DNA of 64,000 bases from contig NZ_CP042910.1 in the NCBI RefSeq assembly GCF_008298035.1, positions 5,409,001-5,473,000 of the forward strand, written 5' to 3'. Shown here one piece after another: positions 550 through 19,516 of the stretch (position 1 is the stretch's first letter; every line of letters begins with the position of its first letter). A program made the translations under genes and the position numbers. The stretch comes from Gimesia maris (GTDB lineage Bacteria > Planctomycetota > Planctomycetia > Planctomycetales > Planctomycetaceae). Under the pieces are notes generated by a model that did no database searches, was not told where the DNA came from, and worked only from the letters and a program-made list of their open reading frames with translations.

Positions 550-2973
550 CTACCCTGGAGGTTCTATTCGTACACTTTTTTCATATAAATCCTGGCACAT
601 ATTTTTATTATATTCACAATTGCGTGCCTCTGCTGGCTCTGAGTTCTTGCTGTATTCGCCAGCTGCCTTTTCATAAAGTCCTGCAGCTGCTTTGTACAAT
701 CCGGCTGCTGCTTCGAGTTTACCGGCCCGTTTTAAGACGCCAGCCTGAAGATAAGTGCAATCAGCGCGTGCTTTACTGGCATGGAAATATCCATACCTTC
801 CCGCAAGTTCATAAAAATCTGTGGCTATCAAAAAGCTTTTTTGTACCTGCGGCAGCTGGTTTGGATAAGACTTCAGTTGATACTTGCCGTGACTCACATA
901 ACGCGTTCCTGAACTGACCAGATAATTCATCGTCTGATTGCGCCGCTCCGTATTTGTTCCGACAAAATGATCCAGCTTCATCTGTGCTGTCTCTGGATCC
1001 CCCTTGATGATCAGTTGATTAATCGCCTGGAGCTCATAAAAGTCACCCCAGGAGTACCAGAAAAAGATCAGCAGGAGTAGACAGATCATTGAGATGAAGC
1101 CGATAGCAACTCTGACGAGCCGATTTTCCAGATCCTTTCGTTTTTGATCAGCAGGGCTGATTTCATTGAGGACAAACACTTCTGTATCTGGGAGAGCAGG
1201 AATGTTACATTTCACAAGTCCTAATTTTGCCTGCTGGTTATCAGCACACTCGGCAAGTACGGCATGAAATTCATCCTCAGCTGCAGACTTGCTGTCTTCC
1301 TGTAGAAGCTTGTTCGCTTTGCGAACGTGAACCTGAGACTTCAGGCAGGCACGCTCAATTTTTTTTCTGATTTCAGGGATCTCGTCAAAATCGAGCAAAT
1401 TCAGTTTTGTCCTGGCCTGAAAAAAAAGGCGAGAGTTACATAAGGCCTGAATTTCAGCAACAAGTCGGTTCTTCTCTTTGATTGTTTCCGCTTCTGCTGC
1501 CAGCTTTTTGACTTCGTTGTCACCCGGAAACTCAAGTTCAAGCTGTTGAATCAAAGAGGCTGACTGGGAAAGATCAGTTTCGAGTGCGTTATGGACACTG
1601 CGAATTAGTGACAACTTTCTCCTGTTAGATTCACGCACCGCCTGCGTTTCGCGTTCTTTTTGCGCGATTTGTTCTGTGAGAATTTCCTGTTCTTTTTTTC
1701 GAATCTCAATTTCGTTGTGCCTGTCGATTCGCTCTTGCTGCTGATATTCAATGATTTCGGAAACCAGGGATCGGGCCTCAGTGTAGTCAGGCCATATCTG
1801 CAGTACTTTACCTGCTTCGATTCTGGCTTTCTGAAATTCCCTTTTATCCAGATATCCTCGCGCACTTCTCAGATAACGCTCTACCAGTGGCGCATCACCG
1901 ATCGTGCATCCGCACTGCGAGCAGGCAGCATCTTGTGTTGGTGGCGACGCCTGACACGTCGGATTGGGACAGTCAATCCGCAATGGCTCTCCACAGGAAC
2001 GGCATATCTTTTGATCTGGATCCGCCGCCAGGACTTCACAGAAACCACACATTAATAATTGACCGGTTTTCTGTTTTTGATCCAGAAATAGGTTCCATCC
2101 TTTTTTTTTGTTAACCCAATTGATGATGTATTCTCGAACTGCCTGCTGAGTAGCACCACTGATCGTCACAGAAGTCAAAATATCAGTTATCCGAGTTTCC
2201 GTGATCAGTTTTTCTTCTCCCCCCACAAGCTCAATGATGGTGTCCAGCTCTTGGAAAGCCTGATTGTCCAGATAGTTGTCATACCTCTTCCGGTTATCTT
2301 CATTTAACAGCTGCTTCTGTACATGCCCCAGGATCGCGTTCCGAACTTTATGAGAGGCAGAACCTCTGACCCGCTTTTGCAGTTCTGCTTTGTGTCTTTC
2401 ATAGCCACGTTGAAGCTCTTGAAGACTTGATCGGGAGGTGTAACCTTTACCCAGAAATTGATACAGCGACTTGATACCAGGGAGACCAGCCAGATCAGAA
2501 TTGATGCTCTCAGCTTCGGCATGACTCAAGGCAGGAATTTCAGGAACGGGAGGCTGAGTCAGTTCAGGTGGTCCGAGTGTCAACCCAAAAGACTGAAGCT
2601 GATCTTCAATATAGTCTTCGTCGAGATCCTGTAGATCTCTGGCAATCTTCTCGATGTTATTTTTAGTGTAGTGGTTCCCCCGCGTCTTAAGTGCTTTCAG
2701 GTAAGGAGTCAGTTTTGATTGAGCCTCGCGGATCTGCTCTCGACGGGCTGAGGCTTCCTGACGACGTGTGGTCTCTTTCATCATCACATTACTAAGATCG
2801 CCTTCAAGTATGATTTTGAAAGCGTCAGCCTCTCGCTGAGTTCTTTTAGGAGAGTCAGTCTTTACACGATTATATTTGGAGGTCAGTTCTTCAATCCGCT
2901 TTCGAATAGTCTCCCAATCGTCGACTGCAGGATCAAGTTTTAAAACCTTGTAGTAATTTTCGCGTTCGCACAT
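550..2973 (-). CDS. J-domain-like / zinc-ribbon / TPR single-pass membrane protein
   Basis: 807 residues, ATG at 2973. The N-terminus (about 7-35, YYKVLKLDP...) reads like a degenerate DnaJ-type helix pair. A charged helical region follows. A double zinc ribbon lies at about 308-357, with CxxC pairs in MCGFC, CRSC, CPNPTC and CSQCGC. Then comes a long coiled-coil stretch rich in Glu, Arg and Gln (about 390-580), one membrane helix (about 622-645, ISMICLLLLIFFW), and a C-terminal region of repeated Ala/Gly/Tyr helices (AGLYKAAAGLYEKAAGEY) that looks like TPRs. The topology suggests a cytoplasmic sensing or scaffolding half and a TPR half across the membrane. The partial MotA/ExbB-like gene lies 114 bp downstream on the same strand. 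No enzymatic motif is visible and the function is not known. Confidence 0.75.
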   Translation of the reverse strand: MCERENYYKVLKLDPAVDDWETIRKRIEELTSKYNRVKTDSPKRTQREADAFKIILEGDLSNVMMKETTRRQEASARREQIREAQSKLTPYLKALKTRGNHYTKNNIEKIARDLQDLDEDYIEDQLQSFGLTLGPPELTQPPVPEIPALSHAEAESINSDLAGLPGIKSLYQFLGKGYTSRSSLQELQRGYERHKAELQKRVRGSASHKVRNAILGHVQKQLLNEDNRKRYDNYLDNQAFQELDTIIELVGGEEKLITETRITDILTSVTISGATQQAVREYIINWVNKKKGWNLFLDQKQKTGQLLMCGFCEVLAADPDQKICRSCGEPLRIDCPNPTCQASPPTQDAACSQCGCTIGDAPLVERYLRSARGYLDKREFQKARIEAGKVLQIWPDYTEARSLVSEIIEYQQQERIDRHNEIEIRKKEQEILTEQIAQKERETQAVRESNRRKLSLIRSVHNALETDLSQSASLIQQLELEFPGDNEVKKLAAEAETIKEKNRLVAEIQALCNSRLFFQARTKLNLLDFDEIPEIRKKIERACLKSQVHVRKANKLLQEDSKSAAEDEFHAVLAECADNQQAKLGLVKCNIPALPDTEVFVLNEISPADQKRKDLENRLVRVAIGFISMICLLLLIFFWYSWGDFYELQAINQLIIKGDPETAQMKLDHFVGTNTERRNQTMNYLVSSGTRYVSHGKYQLKSYPNQLPQVQKSFLIATDFYELAGRYGYFHASKARADCTYLQAGVLKRAGKLEAAAGLYKAAAGLYEKAAGEYSKNSEPAEARNCEYNKNMCQDLYEKSVRIEPPG

Positions 2974-3291
2974 GGGATTAATTCAACCGCCAATAATTTC
3001 CAATATGTTTTTTAGAATTATACATAAGACCACACGTGCTGCTTCAAGCATATTTTTTATGGATCTCTGCTTTGCCCGCTGTTTTTCTTGGTCAATTCAA
3101 GTTTGCCAGACCTGAGGCTGTGAACACGAGTAATTCAAACCCCATGCCAGAGGCAACATTCTGATTCCAATAGCTCCTACGGCAAACACCTGCGCTCAGT
3201 AATCGAAGTGCCGCCGCACGTTTGAGAATTTTGGTCTAGGCCATTTAGTTCCAAATGTATATTTCATTCTTTTTGAAGTTAGTAATGTTGC
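2974..3291. other. Intergenic region, no gene seen
   Basis: This 318-base gap separates two minus-strand genes. I see no coding frame of useful length, no RNA gene and no clear hairpin terminator. The promoter of the gene starting at 2973 should lie here. Confidence 0.5.
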
Positions 3292-3927
3292 TCACTTTGA
3301 TTCGAGAAATGAGCGAATGTAACTGCATAACTCAGGCCACATAATATTTTTTCTCTCGTGCCAAGTTCGAATATACTCAAACACATAGGAATACAAGAGA
3401 GTATCAAGACCCTCTTGGTTTTGGGGTTTACTGAGGCGAGTACCTGTCAAGATGCGAAAAGTAAGTGAGTCAAGCGGCTCGAGTCGGAAGGTATCTCGGA
3501 TAACGTCTTTAACTGGCGACATCCCCATCCGCTTTACAATCAGCTTGTAGTAATCTTCCACTTCACGCTGTTTTCGGGTACTACGGGGGTTGGTTTCCTT
3601 TCTCGCTGCATCTTCTAACTTTTCTGACATTGCCACGTGCAGATAGGCAAGATTTTGACGGACCAGGCTTGGGCGTTGAACTTCATCTGAAGCAAGAATA
3701 TCAACCACAAAGTCAAACGGTTTAAAACATTTAATCCTCGCTTTAGTGATTGGACAAATATCTGGGGCGCCAAATACATTGAGACGATAATTCACTGATA
3801 CCTTCGCTTCAGAAAACAAAGGAAGATCGTTATTCAAAAACAGACCATACTCTCCGAAGATATCCTCGCGGAATAAAAACGCTCTACGTTTTACTAGCAT
3901 GTCTGCAATTTCTTTTCGATCTCTCAT
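3292..3927 (-). CDS. Hypothetical protein
   Basis: I do not recognise this protein. The frame can begin with TTG at 3948, but ATG at 3927 (MRDRKEIADM...) is preceded by the purine-rich GAAGAGAGTGAG and is the likelier start, giving 211 residues. It is soluble and charged, with no signal peptide or membrane helix. The middle has an Arg/Lys-rich stretch (about 115-130) and the C-terminus is Trp/Tyr/Arg-rich (EYIRTWHERKNIMW). It lies just downstream of the gene ending near 4090 on the same strand and the two are probably one transcript. Confidence 0.55.
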   Translation of the reverse strand: MRDRKEIADMLVKRRAFLFREDIFGEYGLFLNNDLPLFSEAKVSVNYRLNVFGAPDICPITKARIKCFKPFDFVVDILASDEVQRPSLVRQNLAYLHVAMSEKLEDAARKETNPRSTRKQREVEDYYKLIVKRMGMSPVKDVIRDTFRLEPLDSLTFRILTGTRLSKPQNQEGLDTLLYSYVFEYIRTWHERKNIMWPELCSYIRSFLESK

Positions 3928-5172: not shown

Positions 5173-6389
5173 AGTAGGATATGCCTCAGTTCAACTAATT
5201 TCCGATTGAGGTGAGGGACGAGACAAGTATGCCTATTTCATTTCACCATAAACAAGTATCCGGACCAATTCATAACCGTCCGCCATTTATCCCCGTCTTT
5301 TGTTTTATAGAATACTCGTCACTCGAGTTTATACTGATGGACTGGCCGATATCTACTTCGGATCTGTCAGTATACTCAGAGCCCGCATCAAGTAAATAAA
5401 CGGCTTCACGAAGCATTTTTGAGTGCCTAAACTTCTTAAGTCTATCTGTATCATACTTATTCCATATTCTTTTGAATTGCCTTTCACTCTGTCTCTCACA
5501 GACAGAAAGTGGAAGAAAGAGATCGATGTGATATTCTGCCTAACCATCATTGAGTCATAAACACTCAGAAGAAACACTTGGCCCAACCAGAGACCTTCTC
5601 GTACAGAGGAGTACTCTATTGGGACAACACTTAAATAGCGACGGAACTCAAATGAGATCTTCCTTGCGAAGAGCTAAGAATGTGTAATAGTCTCAATTTC
5701 TCGAAAGGCATCCATTGGGGTTGGTTTAAAATCGGAAACAGATCTTTTACCTGCAATCATTGCTTTTCCAAGATGTCTGTATATTACCTTCTCTCCAACT
5801 CAGTACCAGTCAGAAGTATCTCGCGCCTCAAAAAACGGAGTACAATCCACTCCTTAAGCAACACCAAGATAAAACGCTTGTGAACACTGTTTCTTTAGTG
5901 GTTGATGTCATTTTTATCGGAATTTCTTCAAAGAAATCGAGGACATCAAAACTTGTTCGTTACAACAGTCTGTGTGCTCCGCGGCCGCCATTACTCAGCA
6001 CTACTGAAAGACTGAATTCTTATCCCACAGTGGAGCATGCGCAAGCGCTTGCGCTGTCAGATTCACCGTTCACAGTCTTGTGTAGTCCTCTCGCTCCAAT
6101 CGGAACCAGTTCCTGAAATTCAAAGTTCCAGCTAAATCTTGAAATTTCAGATATTTCCAAGAGAAAAAGCAGGGTTGAGAACCGTTTTAACAACGAAGCC
6201 TGGAGCATGACTTTAGAGGTCAGAACGAAACACATTGGTACTTTTTCCTGTTTATGACAGTTTTTCGAAGCAGATTGCTAAAAGCTTTGGAGATTGCATC
6301 GTTTCATTTCTATAGAAATGCACTCTTTCCCGTCTCATCAAGGATGAGTTGCATTCGCAACAGGAAGCAGGAAATTCTGAGGAGGAAAC
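5173..6389. other. 1.2-kb region without a convincing gene
   Basis: Several short open frames exist on both strands, the longest being 118 codons at 5760-6116. None has a ribosome-binding site, recognisable domain or protein-like composition. The stretch holds a 7-bp hairpin (5489-5507) and a perfect 16-bp palindrome (6039-6054). It sits between divergently oriented gene groups, so it must contain promoters in both directions. It may be degraded coding DNA. Confidence 0.5.
6039..6054. repeat. Perfect 16-bp palindrome
   Basis: GCGCAAGCGCTTGCGC is its own reverse complement and stands out as GC-rich inside a neutral intergenic stretch. It could be a protein-binding site or a relic of a mobile element. 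Only one copy was noticed. Confidence 0.6.
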
Positions 6390-6818
6390 ATGACTACACT
6401 GAAAGAATATGAACTGGAATCCAATGCTAAGGCTCGACTGCAGCGGATCGATTTATCATCAAAGATCCCCCCTTCTGATCCAGGTTGCTGGTATTCGGTC
6501 TACTATGGCGAATTCCCCGCGGCTGATTTGATTGTCGCCAAAGCGTCCGATCGCATTGGGGTGGATCAGATACTGGATGCAACTGATAAGGGCTCCCTGC
6601 AGTTCCTGTTAATTGATCTCGATCAGCACCCCTGGCTTGCCCACGAAGACGGCCGACTAACCCGATTGGTGCGCAGTGCGGAAATCGAGGGGCTGCGAGT
6701 TGTTCCGTATTGCTGTGAACCGCTGGAAACCATCTCCACATTCGAAAGCAGAGATGCCGCAATCTCTTTTTGCCTTCAAAAGTGGGAGCAGCAGCTTCTT
6801 AAAAAGTTCTGGTGGTAA
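6390..6818 (+). CDS. Hypothetical protein, first gene of the RavA-LRR cluster
   Basis: 142 residues, ATG at 6390 with a strong GAGGAGG ribosome-binding site 5-8 bases upstream. The protein is soluble and has no signal peptide. It carries an acidic central stretch (FLLIDLDQHPWL, about 72-83) and a C-terminal helix rich in Gln, Lys and Trp ending in KKFWW. No family is recognised. It starts a run of seven or eight plus-strand genes that ends in the RavA-like/ViaA-like pair, so it may share their function; this is inference from position only. Confidence 0.6.
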   Translation: MTTLKEYELESNAKARLQRIDLSSKIPPSDPGCWYSVYYGEFPAADLIVAKASDRIGVDQILDATDKGSLQFLLIDLDQHPWLAHEDGRLTRLVRSAEIEGLRVVPYCCEPLETISTFESRDAAISFCLQKWEQQLLKKFWW

Positions 6819-6883
6819 GCGGTAGGGGGCCGGCTGAACAGGTCACCCGTTTTTTTAACTATTATTTTGACAAGGATATTCCC

Positions 6884-7279
6884 ATGAGAAAAACCCTAGC
6901 GTTTCACCTTACTATGGCTTCCATTCTATCACTGTTTCTTTCAGGCTGCGGCGCATCCGGTAACGATTTCTCAAAGCTGGAACGCGATCTTGCGCAGGCG
7001 CTGGCGCGGTTCGAGAATGCAGAGTCTCATTTCAGTTCTTCTGCCACGTACGACCAGCTGATCGTCAATGCAGGATGGCTCGACCGGATGGCTGAAGAGG
7101 TCTTAGCTATCCAGCGAATTGAAGCTAAGGCTGTTTCCCTGGGCTCCGAACCAATTCCAGAGATTCGGGAAGAGATTGCCCAGATTTTCAGGCGGAGACT
7201 TGCCACTTTCCAGTCCAACGCTGAATACCTGGAGGTCATGTCACAGTTGGAGATTGCCCGAATCTGGACGGAAATCTAG
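6884..7279 (+). CDS. Small lipoprotein
   Basis: 131 residues starting at ATG 6884, with AAGGA at 6872-6876. A longer frame reaches back to 6812, but that part lacks a start signal and overlaps the preceding gene. The N-terminus is a lipoprotein signal: basic MRK, a hydrophobic stretch, then the lipobox LSGC (Cys near residue 22). The mature part is a helical, acidic domain of about 110 residues with no motif I recognise. It is presumably tethered to the membrane on the periplasmic side. Confidence 0.7.
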   Translation: MRKTLAFHLTMASILSLFLSGCGASGNDFSKLERDLAQALARFENAESHFSSSATYDQLIVNAGWLDRMAEEVLAIQRIEAKAVSLGSEPIPEIREEIAQIFRRRLATFQSNAEYLEVMSQLEIARIWTEI

Positions 7280-7354
7280 CTGACAGCCAAGTGTGCTACG
7301 GCCTGGTCAAAATTTTTGGTCACCATTTTTATGAGATTTTACAAAGAAAATGTT

Positions 7355-7382
7355 CCAGCCGGTTCAATTTAGAGTCGGCTGG
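7355..7382 (+). terminator. Candidate hairpin terminator
   Basis: CCAGCCG (7355-7361) pairs with CGGCTGG (7376-7382) over a 14-nt loop and is followed by TTCGTTTATT. It lies 75 bases after the lipoprotein stop. The T-run is weak, so termination is only probable. Confidence 0.45.
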
Positions 7383-7462
7383 TTCGTTTATTAACTGATA
7401 TTGCGAATCATGTAAGCCTGACACGGTGTTATTGGCCTTGTAGCGAACCAGAGGGAATTACC

Positions 7463-7831
7463 ATGTCTCCCCCTTCATCAGACTCAGACAACCTTAACCC
7501 AGCTCTGATTGCATTTGGCAACGTAATCTGGGCAGTCATTGTTTGTGCTGCGATCAACGTTCTGTGTGGTTGGGGAGTGGATAGTGTAAATCATTGGACA
7601 GGTAATCCACCTGTCACCAAGGCACCAACGTGGATCGGGACAATGATCGTTTCATCGCAAACCGGCTGGCCCATACTCGCTCTTGCTGTGCTCTGTGGTC
7701 TTTTTGGGCGAGACATGTCAGGACTGACCCCCGTTTTGATTGGTACCTACTTCCTGGGACTCATCGACCCTATAGCAGCGTTGGCTGTAGGGAGCATATT
7801 AATACTGATTCAAAGAAACGAAGATGAATGA
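7463..7831 (+). CDS. Small multi-pass membrane protein
   Basis: 122 residues, ATG at 7463 with AGAGGGA upstream. Three hydrophobic segments are visible at about 14-34 (VIWAVIVCAAINVLCGWGV), 56-80 (WPILALAVLCGLF) and 88-115 (VLIGTYFLGLIDPIAALAVG). The C-terminus is short and charged (QRNEDE). No family is recognised. The GTPase gene begins 39 bases after the stop, so the two are probably co-expressed and the protein could be its membrane partner; that is inference. Confidence 0.65.
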   Translation: MSPPSSDSDNLNPALIAFGNVIWAVIVCAAINVLCGWGVDSVNHWTGNPPVTKAPTWIGTMIVSSQTGWPILALAVLCGLFGRDMSGLTPVLIGTYFLGLIDPIAALAVGSILILIQRNEDE

Positions 7832-7870
7832 ACAGACTGCTCATTCCACAAAATTGACGAAGGAGGAATT

Positions 7871-8638
7871 ATGCCACATAAAAAAATGACTCTGAAGGAG
7901 ATGGCTGCTGTGAAGCATGCCATCCTGCAAGAAACTCGACGCAAGCCCCCGACATTCGCGATGACTGGGGTATCCGGTGCTGGTAAAAGCTCGGTTATCA
8001 ATCGGCTCTTCAAAACGTCGCTACCGGTGAGTCATGTTCGCGCCTGCACGAAGGAATTCATTTCAACTGACATCGGACTGCAAATGAACGGTGGTGTTGC
8101 ATCCGGTACGCAGGTAAACCTTCGAGTAATCGATTGCCCGGGTAATGGTGAGGACATTACCCTGGAATCAAAGTACCTGGATCATTATCGTCAGCATCTG
8201 CCAGAAGCGGATGTCATTCTACATGTGTCAGCCGCTCGAAATCGAGCGGTGGCCCTCGAACAACAGCACCTGATGGCCTTGAAAGAACACTCCAATCGTA
8301 TGGTTTTTGGTTTATCTCAAATCGATCTTGTAGTGCCAGGTAATTGGAATGATCGATTGAATCAGCCTGGTAAAGAACAGTTGGCTCACATAGCGGAAAT
8401 CTGCGAAGACCGAAGCGCCCGATTCTCAGCGGTTCTTGACCGTGAGGTCAGTTTTATTCCATTTTCAGCTCAGCATGGTTACGGACTACAATCCCTCTTT
8501 ACCGCACTGATTATGGCGTGTCCGAAAGAACGTGCCTTCCTCTTCGATGGCCTGAAAGGTTTTTCTTTTCAGGATTTTATTCCGGCTGCTGCGTTGAAGC
8601 AACTTGGTAGCGAAATTCTTCAATCAAACCCTCAATAA
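7871..8638 (+). CDS. TRAFAC-type small GTPase (YeeP/YfjP/Era-like)
   Basis: 255 residues, ATG at 7871 with AAGGAGGA just upstream. The GTPase motifs are in order: G1 GVSGAGKS (33-40), a G2 Thr near 60, G3 DCPG (88-91), G4 SQID (149-152, a variant of N/TKxD) and G5 SAQ (199-201). The fold and the short C-terminal tail (F-x-F-x-D-F, about 231-236) resemble prophage- and island-borne GTPases of the YeeP/YfjP/Era type. It probably acts as a nucleotide-controlled switch, possibly at a membrane, because small proteins with hydrophobic segments flank it (7463 and 8655). It lies about 1 kb upstream of the RavA-LRR gene on the same strand. Confidence 0.8.
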   Translation: MPHKKMTLKEMAAVKHAILQETRRKPPTFAMTGVSGAGKSSVINRLFKTSLPVSHVRACTKEFISTDIGLQMNGGVASGTQVNLRVIDCPGNGEDITLESKYLDHYRQHLPEADVILHVSAARNRAVALEQQHLMALKEHSNRMVFGLSQIDLVVPGNWNDRLNQPGKEQLAHIAEICEDRSARFSAVLDREVSFIPFSAQHGYGLQSLFTALIMACPKERAFLFDGLKGFSFQDFIPAAALKQLGSEILQSNPQ

Positions 8639-8654
8639 CCAAGGAGATTCCCCA

Positions 8655-8861
8655 ATGTCAGATTATTCAGATTTAGAACTCGACGAGTTGCGAGCCGCTA
8701 TTCGGGCGGAAGTTCAAAGTGAAATGCTGGCAACTCAGCGGTCTCAGAGCGGCCTTGCCATGTTCCTCCGGGCGATCGGAATGCACGTCTTGGCGAGAAT
8801 GGTCATGAATATGACCATATCGACATGGCAGGCATTTAAAAAAATGATTGGCTGGTCGTGA
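8655..8861 (+). CDS. Small helical protein downstream of the GTPase
   Basis: 68 residues from ATG 8655, preceded by AAGGAGA at 8641-8647 and starting 17 bases after the GTPase stop. The first 35 residues are acidic (LELDELRAAIRAEVQSE) and helical. The second half is an amphipathic or membrane-associated helix (LARMVMNMTISTWQAFKKM). It is tightly linked to the GTPase and may be its partner or anchor. No family is recognised. Confidence 0.6.
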   Translation: MSDYSDLELDELRAAIRAEVQSEMLATQRSQSGLAMFLRAIGMHVLARMVMNMTISTWQAFKKMIGWS

Positions 8862-9210
8862 GTCCAAACATAATACTTGACGAATCGCAAAGCTGATATC
8901 TGGGCGGTTCGATAAATTCTACGAATTATCCACTCCACAGCGACAAAGTACGAGCAATGTATACTATGCTGAAATCTGTAGCAGGTTTGAAAGTTAGTTG
9001 AGAAGTTCAATCCCAACCACAGTTCAACAGGTCACACAGGCATACGTATAGATGAATCAAAATTGTCAGCAAGAATTCAGGAAGTTTGCTGCCGGCAGAT
9101 TAAGTAAGTAGTAAGCAAGCTAGTTGAATAATTGATAATCGCTGGGAATCAGCTTTATTGTATAGATTGCTTTAAGGTCCATAGAAATGAATTGAAAGTG
9201 AGGATCCATT
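8862..9210. other. Intergenic region, no gene seen
   Basis: No coding frame or RNA gene is visible in these 349 bases. The promoter for 9211 and possibly for the RavA-LRR gene may lie here. Confidence 0.45.
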
Positions 9211-9597
9211 ATGAGCTTTTTGAAACGTACAGCCGGTTTCCTTACCGGTACTGTACGATCAGTCGGATCGACCTTGAATGTCCTGACGGGCGGCATCTCG
9301 GTCAAAACTGAAGACGTCCCCATCAGCCCCACAGTAATTGACTCACTGTCCCTTTCAGACATCGAGCAATGGATGAAGCGGAATATGCTTACTGTAGACG
9401 AACCTGTGAAAGTCGCAGTCGTCCGAGAAAGACATGGTGATCTCTACAAAATTTCTTATGTAGTTTTGAACCAACGAAATAAACGCTGTAAAGACAGTGA
9501 GGGAAAAATACGTGCCCAGGCTCAATTAGTTCGAGAAATTAGTCCAGACTTAAACGAATTTCTGGGGAATCATAATTCAGTTCTATTAAATCTGTGA
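9211..9597 (+). CDS. Hypothetical protein upstream of RavA-LRR
   Basis: 128 residues, ATG at 9211 with GAGG about 8 bases upstream. The N-terminus is Gly/Thr/Ser-rich (RTAGFLTGTVRSVGSTLNVLTGG), followed by a compact alpha/beta region with a conserved-looking E-x-W-M-K segment (about 50-56). No domain is recognised. It is 79 bases upstream of the AAA+ gene and probably belongs to the same functional cluster. Confidence 0.55.
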   Translation: MSFLKRTAGFLTGTVRSVGSTLNVLTGGISVKTEDVPISPTVIDSLSLSDIEQWMKRNMLTVDEPVKVAVVRERHGDLYKISYVVLNQRNKRCKDSEGKIRAQAQLVREISPDLNEFLGNHNSVLLNL

Positions 9598-9676
9598 CGT
9601 TTTGTCACCGACCATTAATAATATATACTGATGTGGCTCTTGACCATAACCTGAAACCCAAATATGAGGTTTAAAA

Positions 9677-12073
9677 TTGAATCGTGAACTTAGTAATCGT
9701 GTCCAGGACCTGATCACAACCCTTTCTCAAGGTCTTATTGAGCGAGAGCAACACATCAAGCTAATGCTTTTAGCGGCATTGGCGGGGGAACATGTGTTGC
9801 TGATCGGTCCACCGGGGACGGCAAAGAGTTTGCTTGCGCGGCGGTTGCGGCTGGCATTTCGCGACGCGAAGTTCTTTGAACGTCTCCTCACCCAGTTCTC
9901 GGTCCCCGAAGACCTGTTCGGACCGTATTCACTGGAGGACCTTGACAGCGGTCGTTATCGACGTCTGACAGAAGGCTATCTGGCAGATGCAGATGTTGGA
10001 TTCCTGGACGAAATTTTCAAGAGCAATCCGAGCATCCTGAATGCCTTACTCGCGATCCTCAACGAGCGGGTGTTTCACAATGTTCCGCCGCTGAATGAGA
10101 ATGGCAACAGTGTCGGCGATGCTCCACAACCGTTGCCTGTTCCACTGAAATGCCTGATCGGTGCCAGCAATGAAGTCCCGGCTCCAGGGGAACTGGATGC
10201 CCTGTACGATCGGTTTTTAATTCGCTGTGAAGTGGGGCCGGTCGAAAACTTCCACGCGCTCCTTAAGTCTGCCAGCAATAAAGAACCGCAAGTTAAAAAC
10301 GGCTTGCCTTTTACAGCGGAAGAATTACAGCAGATTCAAGATTCTTCTGAAAAAGTCATTGTCCCAGAACAAGTTGATGAATTACTCGTTCTGTTACGAC
10401 AACGAATGGGCGAACTGCAATTGGATGTCTCCGATCGTCGCTGGTTGAAGATCCGCTGCTTGCTCCAAGTCGCCGCTCACACCAGCGGTCGCGAGCAGGT
10501 ATCACCGCTGGATGTCCTGCTCGTGCCACATTGTGTCTGGTCTCCACGCCAAGATCACATGGCAACTACTGACACTACAGACGACGAAGAAGACCGAAAA
10601 ACCTCCGTAGGAATTTCTCTCGATATTAGGAACGCCCTGACTACGTGGATTCAGGAACGACTTTGGAATTCTTATGCAACCGGGGATATACGCCTCTTTG
10701 AAATTAGTGTTGAAGCTTGGCAAATGAAAGTAGAGCAGGTCCTGGATGGCACGTTTAATGACCGACAAACAAACGAACTGCTGACTCATGCCAGCGAGTG
10801 CCTTTCTCGAATAGAAAATTACTATAAGAAACTGCAGTGTGAAAGTTCCAATTTGGAAAATTGTACAACTCAATGGTTGGAACATGATATAATGCAAGCC
10901 GCCGCAAAGAGCTTGGCTTTCGCCTTGGACTCGTGTTCTGAATTGGTACATCGCATCAGCGAAGTGGTAAAAGCCTTGGAACCAATTCTCAAATCCATAG
11001 ATACCCAATGCGAATTGGAGTCACTAGAAACCGTGCACACTGTTGATCTCTCACTTCCTGGAGAATGGTCGAGCCAAGATGGACAAAATGGTGAATGGCA
11101 GACTATTTCCTCATCAGAGGACGGGGAGATCCCTATGTCTCAGAATCTTCGATACAGATTCAGATTCAAGCCACCTGCAACTGAAGTAAATCTAGTGCGG
11201 TTGATGCGCGACTACGGTCGGTCGCAGTACTTAGTCGACCTGTCACTTGGTGGTACATATTCGCCGAAATCCAGCGTTTCTGATTTATCAGCACTTCGTG
11301 TTTGCAATTCAATTGAAAGATTAGACGTTTCCAAGAGCCAGGTACAAGACTTGAGCACGATTAGCAAACTCAAGTCACTTAGGTATCTGAATTGCGATTA
11401 CACGCCAGTTGACAACTTGGTCGCAGTCTCGGAGTTGCCTCAACTTGCAGAACTTTCGTTGACCGAAACGCGTGTCACGGACATCTCGCCACTCGCTCAA
11501 ATTCGAACGTTAAGTATTCTCTCGTTGGAAGGGGTATCGACTCTCTCAGACATTAGCCCATTTCACAAGATGACATGGCTCCGAGAAATAAATCTGTCAA
11601 GAGTACCTGTTCAAGGCTGGTTGCCGCTCAGCCATCTGACGCAGTTAGAATCACTTCGATTAAATAAAGTTGATCTCCCGTCATTGCAACCACTTCGCAA
11701 CATGCGAGAATTGAAAAGACTATACGTGTCTGAAGCTAAGGAACTTGATTGCATAGACGGTATCGACGGACTTCAGCATCTTCGAGAACTCATCCTTTCA
11801 CATACAAAAGTCAAAGACCTTTCGCCTTTGTCCCAACTATGTTCAATGAAATCAATAGTACTGACGGATACGTTGGTCGATAATCTTGCTCCATTGCAGG
11901 GATTGTTATTGTTGGAACAGTTGGATCTTGCGGGAACGCCAGCTCAGAATATTTCACCACTTGTGCACCTGACAAGTCTTCGTAAGCTCAACCTCAATAA
12001 TATGCCGAATATCGCAAATGAGGACGTTGACTCACTGCAGGCTGCATTACCTAATTGTGAGGTTGAACGGTGA
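9677..12073 (+). CDS. RavA-like MoxR AAA+ ATPase fused to leucine-rich repeats
   Basis: 798 residues. The start is TTG at 9677, supported by GAGGT at 9666-9670. The first 300 residues are an AAA+ domain of the RavA/MoxR group: Walker A GPPGTAKS (about 43-50), Walker B FLDEIFKSN (about 109-117) followed by the helix 2 insert region ILNALLAILNERVF, and the sensor 1 segment IGASNE. A helical region follows (about 310-480). The last 250 residues (from about 545) are at least ten leucine-rich repeats of 22-23 residues of the SDS22/internalin kind (L-x-x-L-x-L-x-x-T-x-V-x-D-I-S-P-L), closed by the cap LPNCEVER. Known RavA proteins end in a small LARA domain, not LRRs. The ViaA-like gene overlaps its stop codon (GTGA). 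The ATPase probably remodels a target chosen by the LRRs, with the VWA protein as partner. Confidence 0.88.
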   Translation: MNRELSNRVQDLITTLSQGLIEREQHIKLMLLAALAGEHVLLIGPPGTAKSLLARRLRLAFRDAKFFERLLTQFSVPEDLFGPYSLEDLDSGRYRRLTEGYLADADVGFLDEIFKSNPSILNALLAILNERVFHNVPPLNENGNSVGDAPQPLPVPLKCLIGASNEVPAPGELDALYDRFLIRCEVGPVENFHALLKSASNKEPQVKNGLPFTAEELQQIQDSSEKVIVPEQVDELLVLLRQRMGELQLDVSDRRWLKIRCLLQVAAHTSGREQVSPLDVLLVPHCVWSPRQDHMATTDTTDDEEDRKTSVGISLDIRNALTTWIQERLWNSYATGDIRLFEISVEAWQMKVEQVLDGTFNDRQTNELLTHASECLSRIENYYKKLQCESSNLENCTTQWLEHDIMQAAAKSLAFALDSCSELVHRISEVVKALEPILKSIDTQCELESLETVHTVDLSLPGEWSSQDGQNGEWQTISSSEDGEIPMSQNLRYRFRFKPPATEVNLVRLMRDYGRSQYLVDLSLGGTYSPKSSVSDLSALRVCNSIERLDVSKSQVQDLSTISKLKSLRYLNCDYTPVDNLVAVSELPQLAELSLTETRVTDISPLAQIRTLSILSLEGVSTLSDISPFHKMTWLREINLSRVPVQGWLPLSHLTQLESLRLNKVDLPSLQPLRNMRELKRLYVSEAKELDCIDGIDGLQHLRELILSHTKVKDLSPLSQLCSMKSIVLTDTLVDNLAPLQGLLLLEQLDLAGTPAQNISPLVHLTSLRKLNLNNMPNIANEDVDSLQAALPNCEVER

Positions 12074-13602
12074 CAAAAGCACATCAGGGGCTCCAGTTCT
12101 CACCTGACAAGCCTACCGTTGAACACTGCTTGGGACTGCCGCTAACAGTGTATCGTCGTGCTGTTACAAATACACATGGCAGGTTTGAAGACAGGATATG
12201 CTCTTTGCAGAGGATTTGGCGAGATACCATGTCTGGGACTTGGCCAATCGAGTTAGATTGGCCATCTGAAATAATACAATGTCGATTAGCTGAGTGGGTT
12301 AGTCGAAATAGTATTTTAGAGCTATGCTGTGGGTCTGAAGAGCTCGTCGAGCAGCTATTGTTGGACATTCTCAACCTTTCGGAGAAGTGCACAAGCAAAA
12401 GAAACGAACTCATAGATTCGTATCATGTTCAGTTCTGGGAAGAGTTTTGGCAGTCGTTTGTAGAGCAAAATAATGCCGTCGAGTATGTTCCAACTACTAG
12501 ATTGGAATTGATAGTATGGCTACATTTATTTCGAGCGATAAATGTCTTCGTGATCGAGAATTTATGTGAATCAGTCAAGGATGAATCAGTTAACATCTCT
12601 CTATCACCAATTAAAGAGATTTGGGAAGAAAGGGTTTCTATATGGCGACAGCTAAAAGATATGTTTGGTCCGCTGGATCGGCTGCTCAGCCCAGGGTGGG
12701 ACCTCTCAGCAGGGATCTTCAAGTATCGTGGCTGGGGAGATCTTAAAAAATACCGGGATTTGATCGACCGGATTCCACAAATTCGCCAAATGATCGAAGA
12801 ACTGGGCAGATTGCAGGCCAGCGAAGAAATGGACGACGATCCCACGTACGCCGATGCGTTCAATTCACTCAGACGAACTACTGAAGAACAACGAGAAGTC
12901 GAACATCCGCTGGCCCGGCATCAGGCACAGGGAATCGAGCGATCAGCCGACTTCATGCGAATGATTCCCAGCGAAGCGATGCTCCGCCGTCGCCCGGGTT
13001 TGAAACGGCTCTGGCATGCCAAGTTGGCCGAGCGGGGGCTACTGACCTACCGCGTGCGCGGAACCTATGTCGACCGTGTTTCTACTGAAGTCGAAGAACA
13101 GCAGCCGCAGTCGAAAAAACGGATTCGCGGACCGATCATCGTTTGTGTTGATACTTCTGGTTCGATGAGTGGTCGGCCCGAAGCTGTTGCCAAAGCGTTG
13201 ACTTTAGAAGCTTGTCGAATTGCTCATGCAGAACAGCGGCCTTGTCTACTGTTTTCCTTCAGCGGTTCCGGTCAGTATGTGGAGCACGAGTTATCTTTAT
13301 CACCCGATGGCCTGCAATCGCTGCTTGAATTTCTGACAATGAATTTCGATGGGGGAACTGATATTTCCACCCCTTTCGAGAAGGCACTTGCTCGATTGCG
13401 AACAGCCGAATGGGAACGTGCTGACATATTGCTGGTCAGCGATGGCGCTTTTTCAAAGTCTCAAGTGGATGCTCTCAAGCCGGCACTGGATGATGCGAAA
13501 AAAAGACTGGGGCTACGTGTTTCTGGCCTGCTCGTCGGAAACTATTCTTCAGGACCAATGAATTCGCTTTGTCAACCATTGATTTCTGTTAATGGTTGGT
13601 AA
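12070..13602 (+). CDS. ViaA-like von Willebrand factor A domain protein
   Basis: 510 residues. The start is GTG at 12070, overlapping the AAA+ stop as GTGA, with GAGG 7 bases upstream; this indicates translational coupling. The N-terminal 340 residues are helical and weakly conserved. They are followed by a basic-acidic linker (about 345-352) and a VWA domain (about 355-510). The metal-binding MIDAS is intact: DTSGS (360-364), a Thr in FDGGTDIS (about 427-430) and an Asp in LLVSDGAF (about 457). In the RavA-ViaA system the VWA protein binds the MoxR ATPase and modulates it. The fixed neighbour here, with fused LRRs, suggests the same partnership with a new specificity. Confidence 0.85.
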   Translation: MTKAHQGLQFSPDKPTVEHCLGLPLTVYRRAVTNTHGRFEDRICSLQRIWRDTMSGTWPIELDWPSEIIQCRLAEWVSRNSILELCCGSEELVEQLLLDILNLSEKCTSKRNELIDSYHVQFWEEFWQSFVEQNNAVEYVPTTRLELIVWLHLFRAINVFVIENLCESVKDESVNISLSPIKEIWEERVSIWRQLKDMFGPLDRLLSPGWDLSAGIFKYRGWGDLKKYRDLIDRIPQIRQMIEELGRLQASEEMDDDPTYADAFNSLRRTTEEQREVEHPLARHQAQGIERSADFMRMIPSEAMLRRRPGLKRLWHAKLAERGLLTYRVRGTYVDRVSTEVEEQQPQSKKRIRGPIIVCVDTSGSMSGRPEAVAKALTLEACRIAHAEQRPCLLFSFSGSGQYVEHELSLSPDGLQSLLEFLTMNFDGGTDISTPFEKALARLRTAEWERADILLVSDGAFSKSQVDALKPALDDAKKRLGLRVSGLLVGNYSSGPMNSLCQPLISVNGW

Positions 13603-14120: not shown

Positions 14121-15156
14121 TAAAATTGGAAAACCAACCTGTGTAATGGTCGTTAAACTGCAAGGTAACTTTTTGGCCAATTGCATTATTTGACATTCGG
14201 TTTGGTTCTCCAAAGAGCACCTCTATCATTTGAACCATTACTGTCAATCCCCCCGTCGTCTTGAAAAATGGGGAGATTTGAATCCGAACTGCGATATCGC
14301 CTAAACGTGCACACTTCGGGCATGGTTCTCTATCTCGATGATTTTTTGAAAAACTCACCATGAACAACTAAATTCTTCTAACGTTGAAACGTTCTTTTAG
14401 TGACACGGGTGAATCATCACTCGGAAATCAAATTCACCAGGAGAACTTTGACATTTGGATGCTGCGGATAATAGTAAATTCTGAATTACTCATGGCTGTT
14501 TTCATTGATGTGGTGATAACTACAAGTATGAAATTCCGACAGACACTTTTCGTGTTGAAGGTTCAGACAGTGATGTGATTCAATCCGGGAACATTTCATT
14601 AATAGCTCTAGGCCTATTGATATTGAGTGAGTATGGGCGAAGGGTGCCTGCCCACCCCTCTGGGGTTTGATGCTTTGCAGAAAACTCTGGAGGGGCTTTT
14701 TTACTTTCAACCTGCTTGAAACTTAGATGTTGGGCAATTCTATTTCTCCGGCTTCTTAAAGTTGAACTGCGTAATTTATGCTGACTTCAACTTCATTCTG
14801 TGAAACTCCAAATGTTCTACAATCGTAAAAAAAGACTCCTATTTCTCTAGGTAATTGGCGCCCCAAAATGTTGAGGCAGGCAGTGTGGACCTAATTCCTG
14901 CGCCACGATTTCTGAGGAATAACATATCAGCAACAAAGTTATAGAGTTGACGTAGTTCACCTTGAATATCGAAGACGAAAGTGAGTTAACCTGCCAATCA
15001 AAAGTTTGAAAACTGTGGAGTTCCTTCAGTTAATGTGAATGAGATTAACTTTTGTTGGCCTCATTGATTTCATGACTTACTAAGTCAGAACACACAAGAG
15101 TCGTTATGAGTAGAGTTTTTATGTGACGAATGATATCAGTCTTAATTTCTGCGAGA
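14121..15156. other. 1-kb region with no convincing gene
   Basis: Only short frames without ribosome-binding sites are present. The region contains one candidate terminator (14655-14702) and otherwise looks like degraded DNA at the left edge of the decayed stretch that reaches 23.6 kb. Confidence 0.45.
14655..14702 (+). terminator. Candidate rho-independent terminator without a gene
   Basis: CCCCTC (14655-14660) pairs with GAGGGG (14690-14695) and is followed directly by CTTTTTT. No intact plus-strand gene ends nearby, so it may have outlived the gene it served. Confidence 0.45.
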
Positions 15157-15693
15157 CTACAAGTTTTTTTTCACGCTTGGATCTTGCAAACGCAAAATCT
15201 GGAAACTTTTTCGTTTTCTGGACTTCGTTTTGGGCAGTGGTTTGGCTTCATGAATCGACATCCAGATTTTCATTTTTAAGTTTAGATCCAAGGGGATAGA
15301 TTGATGTTCCCATTTCTGTGTTGTGCCTACTGCGAATTCATCTGAGGAATGAGATAGAACTTTGTATTTACCAAATTGGTATCTTCCGACTTTTTTCTCG
15401 CCGTTATTCCACTCAATCGTAAATTGATCAATACCCTGATCAAGGCTACTGGCATTCAAGCCTCCTCCTACCAGCATCCATTCCTTACCATTAATCCGAG
15501 TCGCCTTGAAAATAGTACCCTCGGTCGCTTTACGATTTGGCCAAATAAAGATGTAATATGTCTCGATTGTATTATTTCTCAGCTTTGATTCATGAAAAAA
15601 ACTGTGAGGATATTCCTCTGAAAGAGCAACTGTTTCAGACATCATGACCAAAATCATAATCGTCAATATCTTATACACGATATACTTCTCCAT
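15157..15693 (-). CDS. Hypothetical secreted protein
   Basis: 178 residues, ATG at 15693. The N-terminus is a signal peptide (MEKYIVYKILTIMILVMMSETVALSEE; cleavage expected after the ALS region). The mature part is beta-rich with many Trp, Gly and Lys residues, including a WNNGEKKVGRYQFGKYKVL segment (about 93-111). The C-terminal 30 residues are very basic (KPLPKTKSRKRKS). There is no recognised family and it stands alone. Confidence 0.55.
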   Translation of the reverse strand: MEKYIVYKILTIMILVMMSETVALSEEYPHSFFHESKLRNNTIETYYIFIWPNRKATEGTIFKATRINGKEWMLVGGGLNASSLDQGIDQFTIEWNNGEKKVGRYQFGKYKVLSHSSDEFAVGTTQKWEHQSIPLDLNLKMKIWMSIHEAKPLPKTKSRKRKSFQILRLQDPSVKKNL

Positions 15694-16317
15694 ATTTTCG
15701 GGACTATGATACTCAGTGGTTCGAATCGGGAGTGTTCAAGATGCTTGGTGTTTTCTGATGGCTAACAACCCATTCAATCAACGACACATGCCACATGAAG
15801 TTGTATTCCGATCTTTTAGAAATTTCCTGGACTTAAAAGTCAGTCAGATTCACACTCATTTGGTCACCGTTCGAGATTGCCCCCTGCTGATAGCAGCAGT
15901 CAAGTGCTCAGAAAAAGCCCCTGGTTCGTAAATTCGGCATCCATCCATGTCCGGGAATTAAATCGATTAAGATCTGATAAGAGTTTTAACGGGAAAATAA
16001 GTCTAAGGACAGATGAATAAGGATCTTTGCGGTGGATTCTTGCAGAGAATTGAGCGAATTCTTTGTTTTTTTTGATTTTAGAAAAAGAGAGAGTGCGTGG
16101 TCAGTGGCCAACCCACTTTGTCGAACCTGTGGTCGCGGTTACGAATCGCTGCCTGGAATAAATCAAACAACCATATCATCAAGGTGTTTGAGTTAGATTG
16201 TTTCTGTAGTCATATATGAAGCCGGTCAGATGCCCTGATATCTAAAAAAATGACATGGCCGCCCCCCCGCAAAGGTGGTCGGCATACAGAGTTGTCAAGG
16301 GAAAGTAACAGGGCCTG
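15694..16317. other. Intergenic region next to the recombinase remnant
   Basis: I see no gene in these 620 bases. The stretch lies beside the broken serine recombinase and could hold an attachment site, but no duplicated core sequence was recognised. Confidence 0.35.
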
Positions 16318-18038
16318 TCAAAGAGACTTCCTGCGAGTACGCCCGTCGGGTACAGGCAACCCACGTTGCTCATGCCAGTATTTGACTGAGCTGGTCACCG
16401 TATTCCGGTCGATATTCAGAGCTGCAGCGATCTCACCATACTCCTTCTTTTCTCGGAACAGTTTCATGACCTCCTCCGCGATCGCCTGATAGGGAGGCGG
16501 TTCTTTGTGTTTCACAGCAAGTCGCGACCGGCGGGATCGTCCATCCGGCTTTTTCTCGCCCCGTAGTTCAAAGACTTCATCTATAAGCTTCGTAACCCTA
16601 CTCCGGCTGACTCCTAATGCTTCAGCAATTTTGAATTCTGGTTCTTCAGCGTCGTACATCCGTTTGGCGATCTCGCGCTGCTGATCTGCTTTATCCGGCT
16701 GGATGAAGTCAATCATGACTTCCGCACCTTGCACAGTCCCCTCAACCAAAGCTGAGGTGCCAGTAAGAAAGTTATAAACCCCTCTGACGTTGAGTCGGAA
16801 TTTGCCACGAAAATAATTCCGTTTTCTCAGAGGAATCTCGTTCTCTTCCAGAATGATTTCCCCACCGACAAGGGCACTCAAGGCCTTATTAGCGGCAGGC
16901 GATGATTCCTGCAGAACATCAAACAACTGCTTAAGTCGTTCCCTCAGCCATGCTTCGGAGGGGGTTCCCAGGTCCTGGTTCCGCTCCAGCCGGAGCTGTT
17001 TCAGCTCATACTGGATTTCTTTCTGTTCTTCCTTCCTGGATTTGAGACGTCGCTGCAAATCCTCTGGGGGATCCCCCTGTTCGACCTGATCGACCAGACG
17101 CTCGATCTTTTGAGTTACCTGGTATAACTCCCGTTCTTTCTCTCTGATCGTCGTGGGGACCCGGTTTTCGTATTGATCACATAGATTTTTCGCGGCTTAC
17201 TGTTACGGCCTGCGCGATTCTGTTCCGATCCCGGTACTGGCTCAGAGCCGTAACCGAAACACCAGTCTCCCACAGAATAACCACTGAGCAGGGCCCCCTC
17301 CTGCCCCCGGATAACAGCTGCACTTAAATCTTTGATGAACTGTTCATGGATCAGGGCAAAAATCGCAGCGATAACTTCCCAGCCAGTTGTATCAGTGTCT
17401 ATACCTTCAGTCACACAGATACAACGAACACCGTAGACATAGACGAGCTTCTTGAGGATCGGTAATGTAATCACGGATTCTCGAGCCAGTCGGCTCAGGC
17501 TATACAAATAAAGTACATTGAACCTGCCCTGCTTTGCTGCCTCCAGCATTTCATTCAAGCCCTCTCTTTCTAGCTTCGTACCCGAGACGGCCCTATCTTC
17601 AAATTCGTAAGCAGGTAGAATAGTATGCCCTAACCGGGAGGCATGTTCTCGGCACTTTTGTTGCTGCTGATCAATACTTTCATCTCGCTGATTATTGGAA
17701 CTGAAGCGAGAATAATCAGCGGCTACTTCCGGAACATCCTGGGATTCCTGTTTCTTTTTACCGCGCCGTCGTTTTCGGGCATACACAACAGCTGATTCGC
17801 TGGTGGCTGGGGCAGGAACATGGCTAAAATCAATTTGTGCTGAAAGTGTGCTGAAACGATTGCCAAATAACAGAAAACAACCAGCACTAACCAGAAGCAA
17901 CCATAAGACTGCTCCCGCAACAAAAATAGGGGTTTGACGCTTAATCGCTACTATGCTAGAGTAAGATAAAAACAGGGATCCGAGTTTCCCCCTCTCTCCG
18001 CATCCAATGAACGATGGCTCGCAACCACCTGAAAACAA
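16318..18038 (-). pseudogene. Large serine recombinase with internal deletion and frameshift
   Basis: The upstream frame (18038-17115) has a Ser recombinase N-terminal domain: YSRFSSNNQ with the catalytic Ser, followed by VSGTKLEREGLNEML and LYSLSRLARE. It then breaks at KIYVINTKT. The second frame (17058-16318) and the in-frame codons just before it begin with TTIREKERELYQVTQKIERL. They continue into the coiled coil and the C-terminal region with two helix-turn-helix-like segments (IAEALGVSRSRVTKLIDE and IAAALNIDRNTVTSSVKYW). The recombinase-domain and zinc-ribbon region that should connect them is missing, so a deletion has fused the ends out of frame. An unusual N-terminal membrane helix (TPIFVAGAVLWLLLVSAGCFLLF) precedes the catalytic domain. 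No ATG start was found. The protein must be inactive. Confidence 0.8.
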
Positions 18039-19225: not shown

Positions 19226-19447
19226 TAAAACCTGTTGGGAAAGCCTAAAGATAATGCGTATATTGAATCGTTCAACGGACGAGTTCGCCAGGAATGTTTA
19301 AACCAGCATTGGTTTATAAGTTTGGCAGATGCCGAGGAACAAATCGATCGGTGGCGGCTGGACTATTTCGCCCCCCCACACAGCTCCCTGGGAAATCAGA
19401 CCCCAGTAGAGTTCGGGAAAAATTCATCCCTGGATCGCCAGGGATGA
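19226..19447 (+). pseudogene. IS3-family transposase OrfB fragment
   Basis: Only the last 70 or so residues remain. GKPKDNAYIESFNGRVRQEC holds the catalytic Glu context of the DDE integrase core (D/N-x-x-x-E-S-F-N-G). It is followed by NQHWFISLADAEEQI and the typical end PHSSLGNQTPVEF. The upstream part is missing. The fragment ends inside a 14-bp inverted repeat (19420-19451). Confidence 0.75.
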
Positions 19448-19451
19448 ATTT
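19420..19451. repeat. 14-bp inverted repeat at the IS3 fragment end
   Basis: AAATTCATCCCTGG and its exact complement are separated by 4 bases (ATCG). A shorter copy of the outer part (GAAATTCAT) occurs near 19513. It may be the fused end of a mobile element. Confidence 0.55.
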
Positions 19452-19516
19452 ACCTTGGGTCTCTAACATTCCAACTGGTGCAAGGTCAATACTTGGGATT
19501 TGGTTACAGGGGAAAT

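Follow-up and report, generated by a model that had tools for sequence, protein, structure and literature searches.

A RavA-like ATPase bearing leucine-rich repeats, paired with a ViaA-like VWA protein in Gimesia maris

In enterobacteria, RavA-ViaA, a pair formed by a MoxR-type AAA+ ATPase and a protein with a von Willebrand factor A (VWA) domain, is known for its part in stress and respiration. Here we describe a divergent pair of this kind in Gimesia maris, in which the ATPase ends in an array of leucine-rich repeats (LRRs). The two genes lie in a stretch of 64,000 nucleotides of contig NZ_CP042910.1 (positions 5,409,001 to 5,473,000, forward strand), referred to below as the window.

In E. 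coli, the N-terminal domain of ViaA binds RavA, and RavA without LARA, a small inserted domain that selects LdcI and lipid, keeps ViaA binding and loses lipid binding (PMC9489729). LARA also mediates the LdcI-RavA cage (PMC6987120). For NorQ-NorD, it was proposed that a finger of the VWA protein sits in the pore of the ATPase ring with the metal-ion-dependent adhesion site (MIDAS) turned toward the client, and that this arrangement is general for MoxR-VWA pairs (PMC9976466). The window pair shares with E. coli RavA-ViaA a MoxR AAA+ core whose catalytic residues are the same, a helical region after the core and an overlapping or adjacent VWA partner with a MIDAS. It differs in having no LARA-type insert, in its added C-terminal LRRs, in an identity of about 45% over the core only, in belonging to a distinct clade and in its defence-rich setting.

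The gene pair and its domains

Both frames are open across 1308 codons (Table 1). The ATPase gene starts with TTG, preceded by GAGG at 9666-9669, 7 nt 5' of the start, and the VWA gene starts with GTG. An earlier reading of the DNA alone, the first-pass annotation, had the coordinates of both genes and their overlap right. The join between ATPase and LRRs, which it had named as a possible assembly error, is one open frame in a one-contig genome of 7.8 Mb, and such an error is therefore unlikely. The AAA part has a G+C content of 0.52, which falls to 0.45-0.43 between residue 291 and ViaA residue 185 (0.48 in a short linker inside this low block) and is 0.52 again thereafter; the window as a whole has 0.49.

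Table 1. Features of the pair and of the genes that probably share its operon (positions in the window)
Feature	Positions	Strand	Basis
RavA-type MoxR AAA+ ATPase with C-terminal LRRs, 798 aa	9677-12073	+	Open reading frame (ORF), Pfam, NCBIfam
AAA+ core, residues 1-290 (Walker A 44-51, Walker B 109-112, arginine finger R179, sensor-2 R254)	9677-10546	+	Profiles, alignment
Helical region, residues 305-448; LARA-type insert missing	10589-11020	+	Alignment to helices flanking the insert in relatives; model helices
Leucine-rich repeats, residues 519-797, C-terminal cap LQAALPNCEV	11231-12070	+	Pfam, PDB match, repeat register
GTGA overlap between ATPase and VWA genes	12070-12073	+	ORF ends
ViaA-type protein, 510 aa; helical N-terminal part, C-terminal VWA with MIDAS	12070-13602	+	ORF, Pfam, NCBIfam, alignment, model
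Protein resembling a lipoprotein (LSGC lipobox), 131 aa	6884-7279	+	By eye; probable operon member
Protein resembling a membrane-spanning protein, 122 aa	7463-7831	+	By eye; probable operon member
GTPase, 255 aa	7871-8638	+	MMR_HSR1 42.4 bits; probable operon member
128-aa protein, 79 nt 5' of ATPase gene	9211-9597	+	No Pfam, NCBIfam or PADLOC match; probable operon member

The ATPase matches the Pfam families bpMoxR (159.7 bits), AAA_5 (78.8 bits) and AAA_lid_8 (residues 233-294), as well as the NCBIfam RavA model NF010054 (274.6 bits over residues 3-292; curated cut-off 681 not reached). The Walker motifs read GPPGTAKS and FLDE and are intact, as had been noticed at first reading: in an alignment of 29 sequences G44, G47, A49, K50, S51, F109, D111 and E112 are invariant and P46 nearly so. 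Six of the seven nucleotide-site residues reported for E. coli RavA (A51, K52, S53, D114, R170, R251 and M189; PMC6987120) are unchanged by alignment mapping, as A49, K50, S51, D111, R179 and R254 (the E. coli row used had no first Met, and its numbering is off by one). The loop after NERVFHN is longer in the window ATPase than in its relatives in an alignment of ten sequences. Sequence search against PDB chains returned RavA at an E-value of about 8e-66 over residues 5-292, and in a Foldseek search with the ATPase model the best four rows were all RavA chains (E 2e-23 to 6e-23). Residues 1-290 of this model consist of blocks that are mostly at 84-98 in the predicted local distance difference test (pLDDT), with dips to 77 and 62 at 131-150.

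Helices on both sides of the LARA-type insert can be traced in the ten-sequence alignment and end in an (H)LW/QWL motif, but the insert between them is nearly absent. In the 23 relatives in which a pattern search located HLW, the span from DRRW to HLW covers 193-254 residues, whereas the window ATPase has 145 from DRRW to QWLE. The model places helices at 305-448 with pLDDT of about 50-87. The alignment gap and the shortened span thus agree with the earlier remark that a LARA-type domain is lacking, and the insert is, as judged by alignment, lost. The middle region (residues 295-530) is present in only one of 392 genomes of the phylum, its own.

The C-terminal part has an LRR_4 match in Pfam (E 2.8e-22) and a repeat register of about 22 residues running from about 522 to 785, which gives 11-12 repeats and a complete array with a cap. 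LRRs had been placed there before, in a count of about ten that now has to be raised. Among PDB chains, internalin A matches at 6e-39 over 537-775 and a Rab-family (Roco) LRR protein at 8e-32. A crude LxxLxL count, 16 in the window against a mean of 9.0 and a maximum of 19 in 1000 shuffles, does not discriminate alone; the identification rests on the Pfam and internalin A matches instead. The cap resembles LQRALPNCKI and LAQALPECDI of two other LRR proteins of the same genome, as well as LQKALPNCKI in an LRR protein of one family member, and a loose pattern found a similar cap in 3 of 8 LRR regions examined, with a weak match in a fourth. Because of this resemblance, we infer an origin of the LRRs in the LRR pool of the lineage itself.

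The VWA protein scores 187.9 bits over residues 186-474 against the NCBIfam ViaA model NF008230, whose curated cut-off of 500 is not reached; for a divergent variant, scores below the equivalog cut-offs are expected in both proteins. Its VWA domain forms the C-terminal end, and residues 23-510 align almost end to end with the partner protein of a related locus (L051; 39% identity). The MIDAS is complete, in keeping with the first reading, and among 24 sequences D361, S363 and S365 are invariant and T430 and D458 nearly so. The model of this protein has strands at 269-280 and 332-343, predicted with low confidence, which could be a VWA finger like that of NorQ-NorD.

Relatives and distribution of the fusion

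A tree of 80 dereplicated cores (from 122) places the window ATPase in a clade of 31 rows (support 95/97), whose RavA/ViaA pairs belong to Beggiatoa kin, Myxococcota, Rhodocyclales and other groups. The neighbouring clade of 20 rows holds enteric, Vibrio and Bacteroidota RavA, and the bpMoxR-like ATPases of the family stand apart in 23 rows (98/95). Other pairs of the 31-row clade have the same core, partner and gene order, and several lie beside defence genes. They differ from the window pair in that the insert is present or the length canonical.

We scanned 84,980 species genomes and confirmed at least 576 relatives, of which the best 80 were analysed; none of these 80 loci has an LRR match, and one of them (L061) reaches the contig end inside the gene. 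Within the phylum, RavA is found at E 1e-60 in 5 of 392 genomes including this one; the 8 further genomes of the genus in the set yield no such match, and the loci of the 4 other RavA-bearing genomes (5 matches) are likewise free of LRR matches. In 120 genomes of the family, with 8 candidates scored per genome, AAA matches occur only in frames without LRRs among the matches listed. No relative of the full 798-aa protein was found on viral contigs. Phage records (none of 42 covers 80% of the query) and 101 plasmid records matched the AAA part or the LRR part only separately. The fusion, which the first-pass annotation had proposed to look for beside the VWA gene in other genomes, has thus been seen only in the window. 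By core and partner the pair belongs to the RavA-ViaA kin; as judged from sequence, its ATPase differs from RavA proper in the insert and in falling short of the cut-off.

No characterised homolog of the same architecture turned up among the best 80 relatives or in the open-access literature, where we found no report of LRRs on RavA/ViaA or MoxR, nor, among the titles listed, of RavA as a defence gene. In PMC7159879 LRRs are mentioned in the reference list only, and in PMC8195603, among the matches listed, they occur elsewhere than on MoxR. The earlier identification of an LRR-bearing, RavA-like ATPase and its ViaA-like partner stands on NCBIfam profiles, among which RavA and ViaA are the closest families, on structures and on the tree. 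Conservation of the fusion was not found. One locus, L067 (725-3157) of a gammaproteobacterial metagenome-assembled genome, encodes a RavA core and a VWA domain in one frame of 811 aa, a natural ravA-viaA fusion.

Possible function and competing explanations

With the LARA-type insert gone and 11-12 LRRs at the C-terminus, the LRRs most likely select the client in place of LARA, and their recruiting a target for remodelling, as first suggested, is plausible. By analogy with E. coli RavA-ViaA and NorQ-NorD, the ATPase would form an ATP-driven hexamer on which the VWA protein docks through its helical N-terminal part, passing force to a client held at the MIDAS. Six LRR arms around the ring might then bind a protein client or trigger, and the ring with its ViaA-type partner would remodel what they hold. 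A change from LARA to LRRs would alter the client and leave motor and partner as they are; it need not break the pair, since ViaA binding does not depend on LARA, and RavA is bound by the N-terminal domain of ViaA alone (PMC9489729). We give an even chance to the reading that a RavA/ViaA-type machine has been re-aimed by LRRs, with a role in conflict with phages or mobile elements as the likeliest use because of the genomic setting.

In the same 80-kb stretch as the pair, several conflict-type clusters form an island between about 73 and 13 kb upstream of the ATPase gene. PADLOC recognises BREX type 2 there (PglW, PglX, BrxC/PglY, PglZ, BrxD and BrxHI). A further cluster (L149; L142 479-2566) combines a MoxR-like ATPase and a VWA protein with an AAA ATPase, a sigma-70-region protein and a large CHAT protein; it opens with a paralogue of the 128-aa protein, 25% identical to that of the window pair's operon (E 1e-9 to 3e-13). 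GAP1-N2/GAP1-M lies with two DO-GTPase2 proteins, families described as GTPase-centred conflict systems (Kaur et al. 2020, PMC7159879), and at L143 3263-7891 an HSP70 fused to VWA, a second HSP70 and a GrpE gene stand in tandem.

Defence genes also accompany the relatives. Type III methylase and restriction enzyme genes directly adjoin ravA in L050; L051 has a ResIII protein, a type IIG enzyme and an integrase (its gene at 1052-3394 encodes a dehydrogenase), L056 a Mokosh-like helicase and a PLD protein, and L063 AbiEii. In two Parabeggiatoa loci (L055 1880-3357 and L057 3413-4297) a CD-NTase-like gene lies between ravA and viaA, a CD-NTase in L055 (PADLOC Cyclase, 1.3e-57) and one with a weaker SMODS match in L057; in L055 the CD-NTase is preceded by a 231-aa gene without a Pfam match. 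At E 1e-10, PADLOC gave nothing for L058 4316-5860 or L059 2400-5303. A rule-based count (all ORFs of at least 200 aa except the pair in the first 17 loci listed, PADLOC at E 1e-20) gave 13 PADLOC families among 66 neighbouring proteins, against one among 65 proteins of 12 enteric and Vibrio loci, which is a contrast rather than a test with independent trials because the control loci share gene order. The 13 families include RtcR-type regulators (3 models, 2 proteins each), Cyclase (2), REase_I (3 models), SoFic, MkoA (2), MkoC, DrmC and PDC-M16A (1 each for those without a number); the control family is mad3, in 6 proteins. The control set had 17 loci and 93 proteins before L079, L081, L083, L087 and L095 were dropped for size. 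Of the stress or conflict system first envisaged, the conflict half gains from these clusters and neighbours, while the stress half is still a rival.

Several observations weigh against a re-aimed conflict machine. The fusion is one gene in one genome, so that conservation cannot speak for selection on it, and the structure model has no usable LRR fold, showing scattered helices mostly below pLDDT 50. At the seventh nucleotide-site position, the window ATPase has leucine in place of the M189 of E. coli RavA. For RavA as a whole the tree gives a support of only 85/90, the window branch is long (1.57) and the tree program warns on long rows. No PADLOC-DB 2.0.0 model fits the pair (best for the ATPase is mad8 at E 0.025, and none for the VWA protein), and no nuclease, protease or other effector is recognisable beside it. 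The relatives' neighbours named above (L050, L051, L055-L059, L063) were picked by eye, two of the 13 family hits come from two RtcR-type regulators repeated under three models, which do not necessarily serve defence, and the control loci come from related enterobacteria and are not independent.

Alternatively, the pair might be a housekeeping or stress chaperone that matures or protects a host complex as E. coli RavA-ViaA does, its LRRs binding a host protein, while islands merely collect genes. The RavA-ViaA pairs studied so far work on respiratory complexes and membrane lipid and influence drug sensitivity (PMC9489729, PMC10585395, PMC3893208), and the lack of a recognised effector gene beside the pair would fit such a role, but the sparse occurrence of RavA in the phylum and its absence, at E 1e-60, from the 8 other genomes of the genus in the set do not, and the mobile setting with a decayed sibling (see below) fits turnover better than a core function. 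We consider this explanation possible but somewhat unlikely, although between defence use as such and a host chaperone role the balance is about even.

There is a slim chance that the fusion has no function, a RavA gene cut by recombination having been joined to a stray LRR gene and now decaying like the sibling operon upstream, which is reduced to fragments. The fall in G+C from residue 291 to ViaA residue 185 could mark a spliced-in block, but this block crosses the gene border instead of covering the LRRs alone. Moreover, catalytic and MIDAS residues are intact within the 1308 open codons, the helical region persists and the LRR array runs complete to its cap, all of which argue against chance joining.

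It is just as improbable that the pair belongs to a MoxR-vWA beta-propeller conflict system (Kaur et al. 2020) in which LRRs have replaced the propeller: the bpMoxR match and the GxxxTAKS P-loop named for such systems (PMC7159879) point that way, but the match is not discriminating because RavA homologues of relatives also match bpMoxR (about 200 bits), the tree separates the family's bpMoxR-like ATPases from the window's group, and the vWA part, which according to that paper strictly carries the propeller, here ends the protein with no propeller in the Pfam scan, so that membership was rejected on tree placement and the missing propeller. The ternary conflict systems of the same paper do resemble the window in combining a MoxR ATPase with a VWA partner and in an island with conflict-type clusters; they differ in components (VMAP, iSTAND, FtsH or propeller) that are not recognised beside the pair, the first three giving no match in Pfam scans of five upstream neighbours (6390-9597) and three downstream ORFs (15157-18038).

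The design of the fusion also recalls the STAND/NLR immune proteins, which likewise carry an ATPase and an LRR arm in one chain, but here the ATPase is a MoxR-clade AAA+ with a VWA partner rather than a STAND module, and no STAND or NACHT module has a Pfam match in it at E 0.1. A bolder and, in our estimate, unlikely proposal is that a RavA/ViaA clade outside enterobacteria consists of unrecognised defence ATPases with exchangeable recognition parts. In Gimesia maris, LRR arms recruited from the host's LRR proteins would then let a six-armed ring sense an invader protein and remodel it, or a partner, via ViaA; a MoxR motor would thereby follow an NLR-like logic, and the GTPase and the 128-aa protein may be further parts of it. 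If the sister clade does defend and LRRs can take the place of its recognition part, LRR sensors would be carried by MoxR-VWA motors as well as by STAND ATPases, and the pair could serve as a compact test of client choice by a MoxR-VWA machine.

The operon, its decayed sibling and nearby mobile DNA

The pair probably closes an operon that runs from the lipoprotein-like gene through the membrane protein, the GTPase and the 128-aa protein, and the functional unit probably starts near 6.9 kb, upstream of the pair. These genes appear to form one unit because a decayed sibling, about 28-35 kb upstream in the same genome and on the opposite strand, keeps pieces of the same genes in the same order. 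The pieces correspond to the lipoprotein-like protein (67% over 80 aa), the membrane protein (41%), the GTPase (57% over 107 aa), the tail of the 128-aa protein (43%), ravA residues 5-38 (59%) and viaA residues 335-429 (65%). The sibling's frames are broken or short, and a 733-aa ORF without a Pfam match lies between the pieces.

Among 59 relatives the GTPase occurs only in the genome's own locus. The 128-aa protein is present in 2 of 294 genomes of the phylum and has no match among plasmid records. Its gene differs at 1 of 387 bases from a copy in another species of the genus (G097; window 8748-9623, L141 9884-9006), where it lies beside a transposase gene without ravA or viaA. Equal synonymous sites point to a recent transfer of this gene. 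The coding stretch before it is nearly identical in that genome as well, and the spacer between the two is clearly diverged, which is a puzzle for transfer.

Downstream of the pair, a segment with a resolvase and a helix-turn-helix gene (14452-18001), taken as a mobile element adjoining the pair, shares 91-92% identity with one further species of the genus and 73-88% with two others. A 142-aa gene and the stretch upstream of it (5806-6831) are duplicated about 43 kb away (L149 7725-6696) with 98% DNA identity. A repeat of about 250 bases at 19236-19487 has many copies in genomes of the genus.

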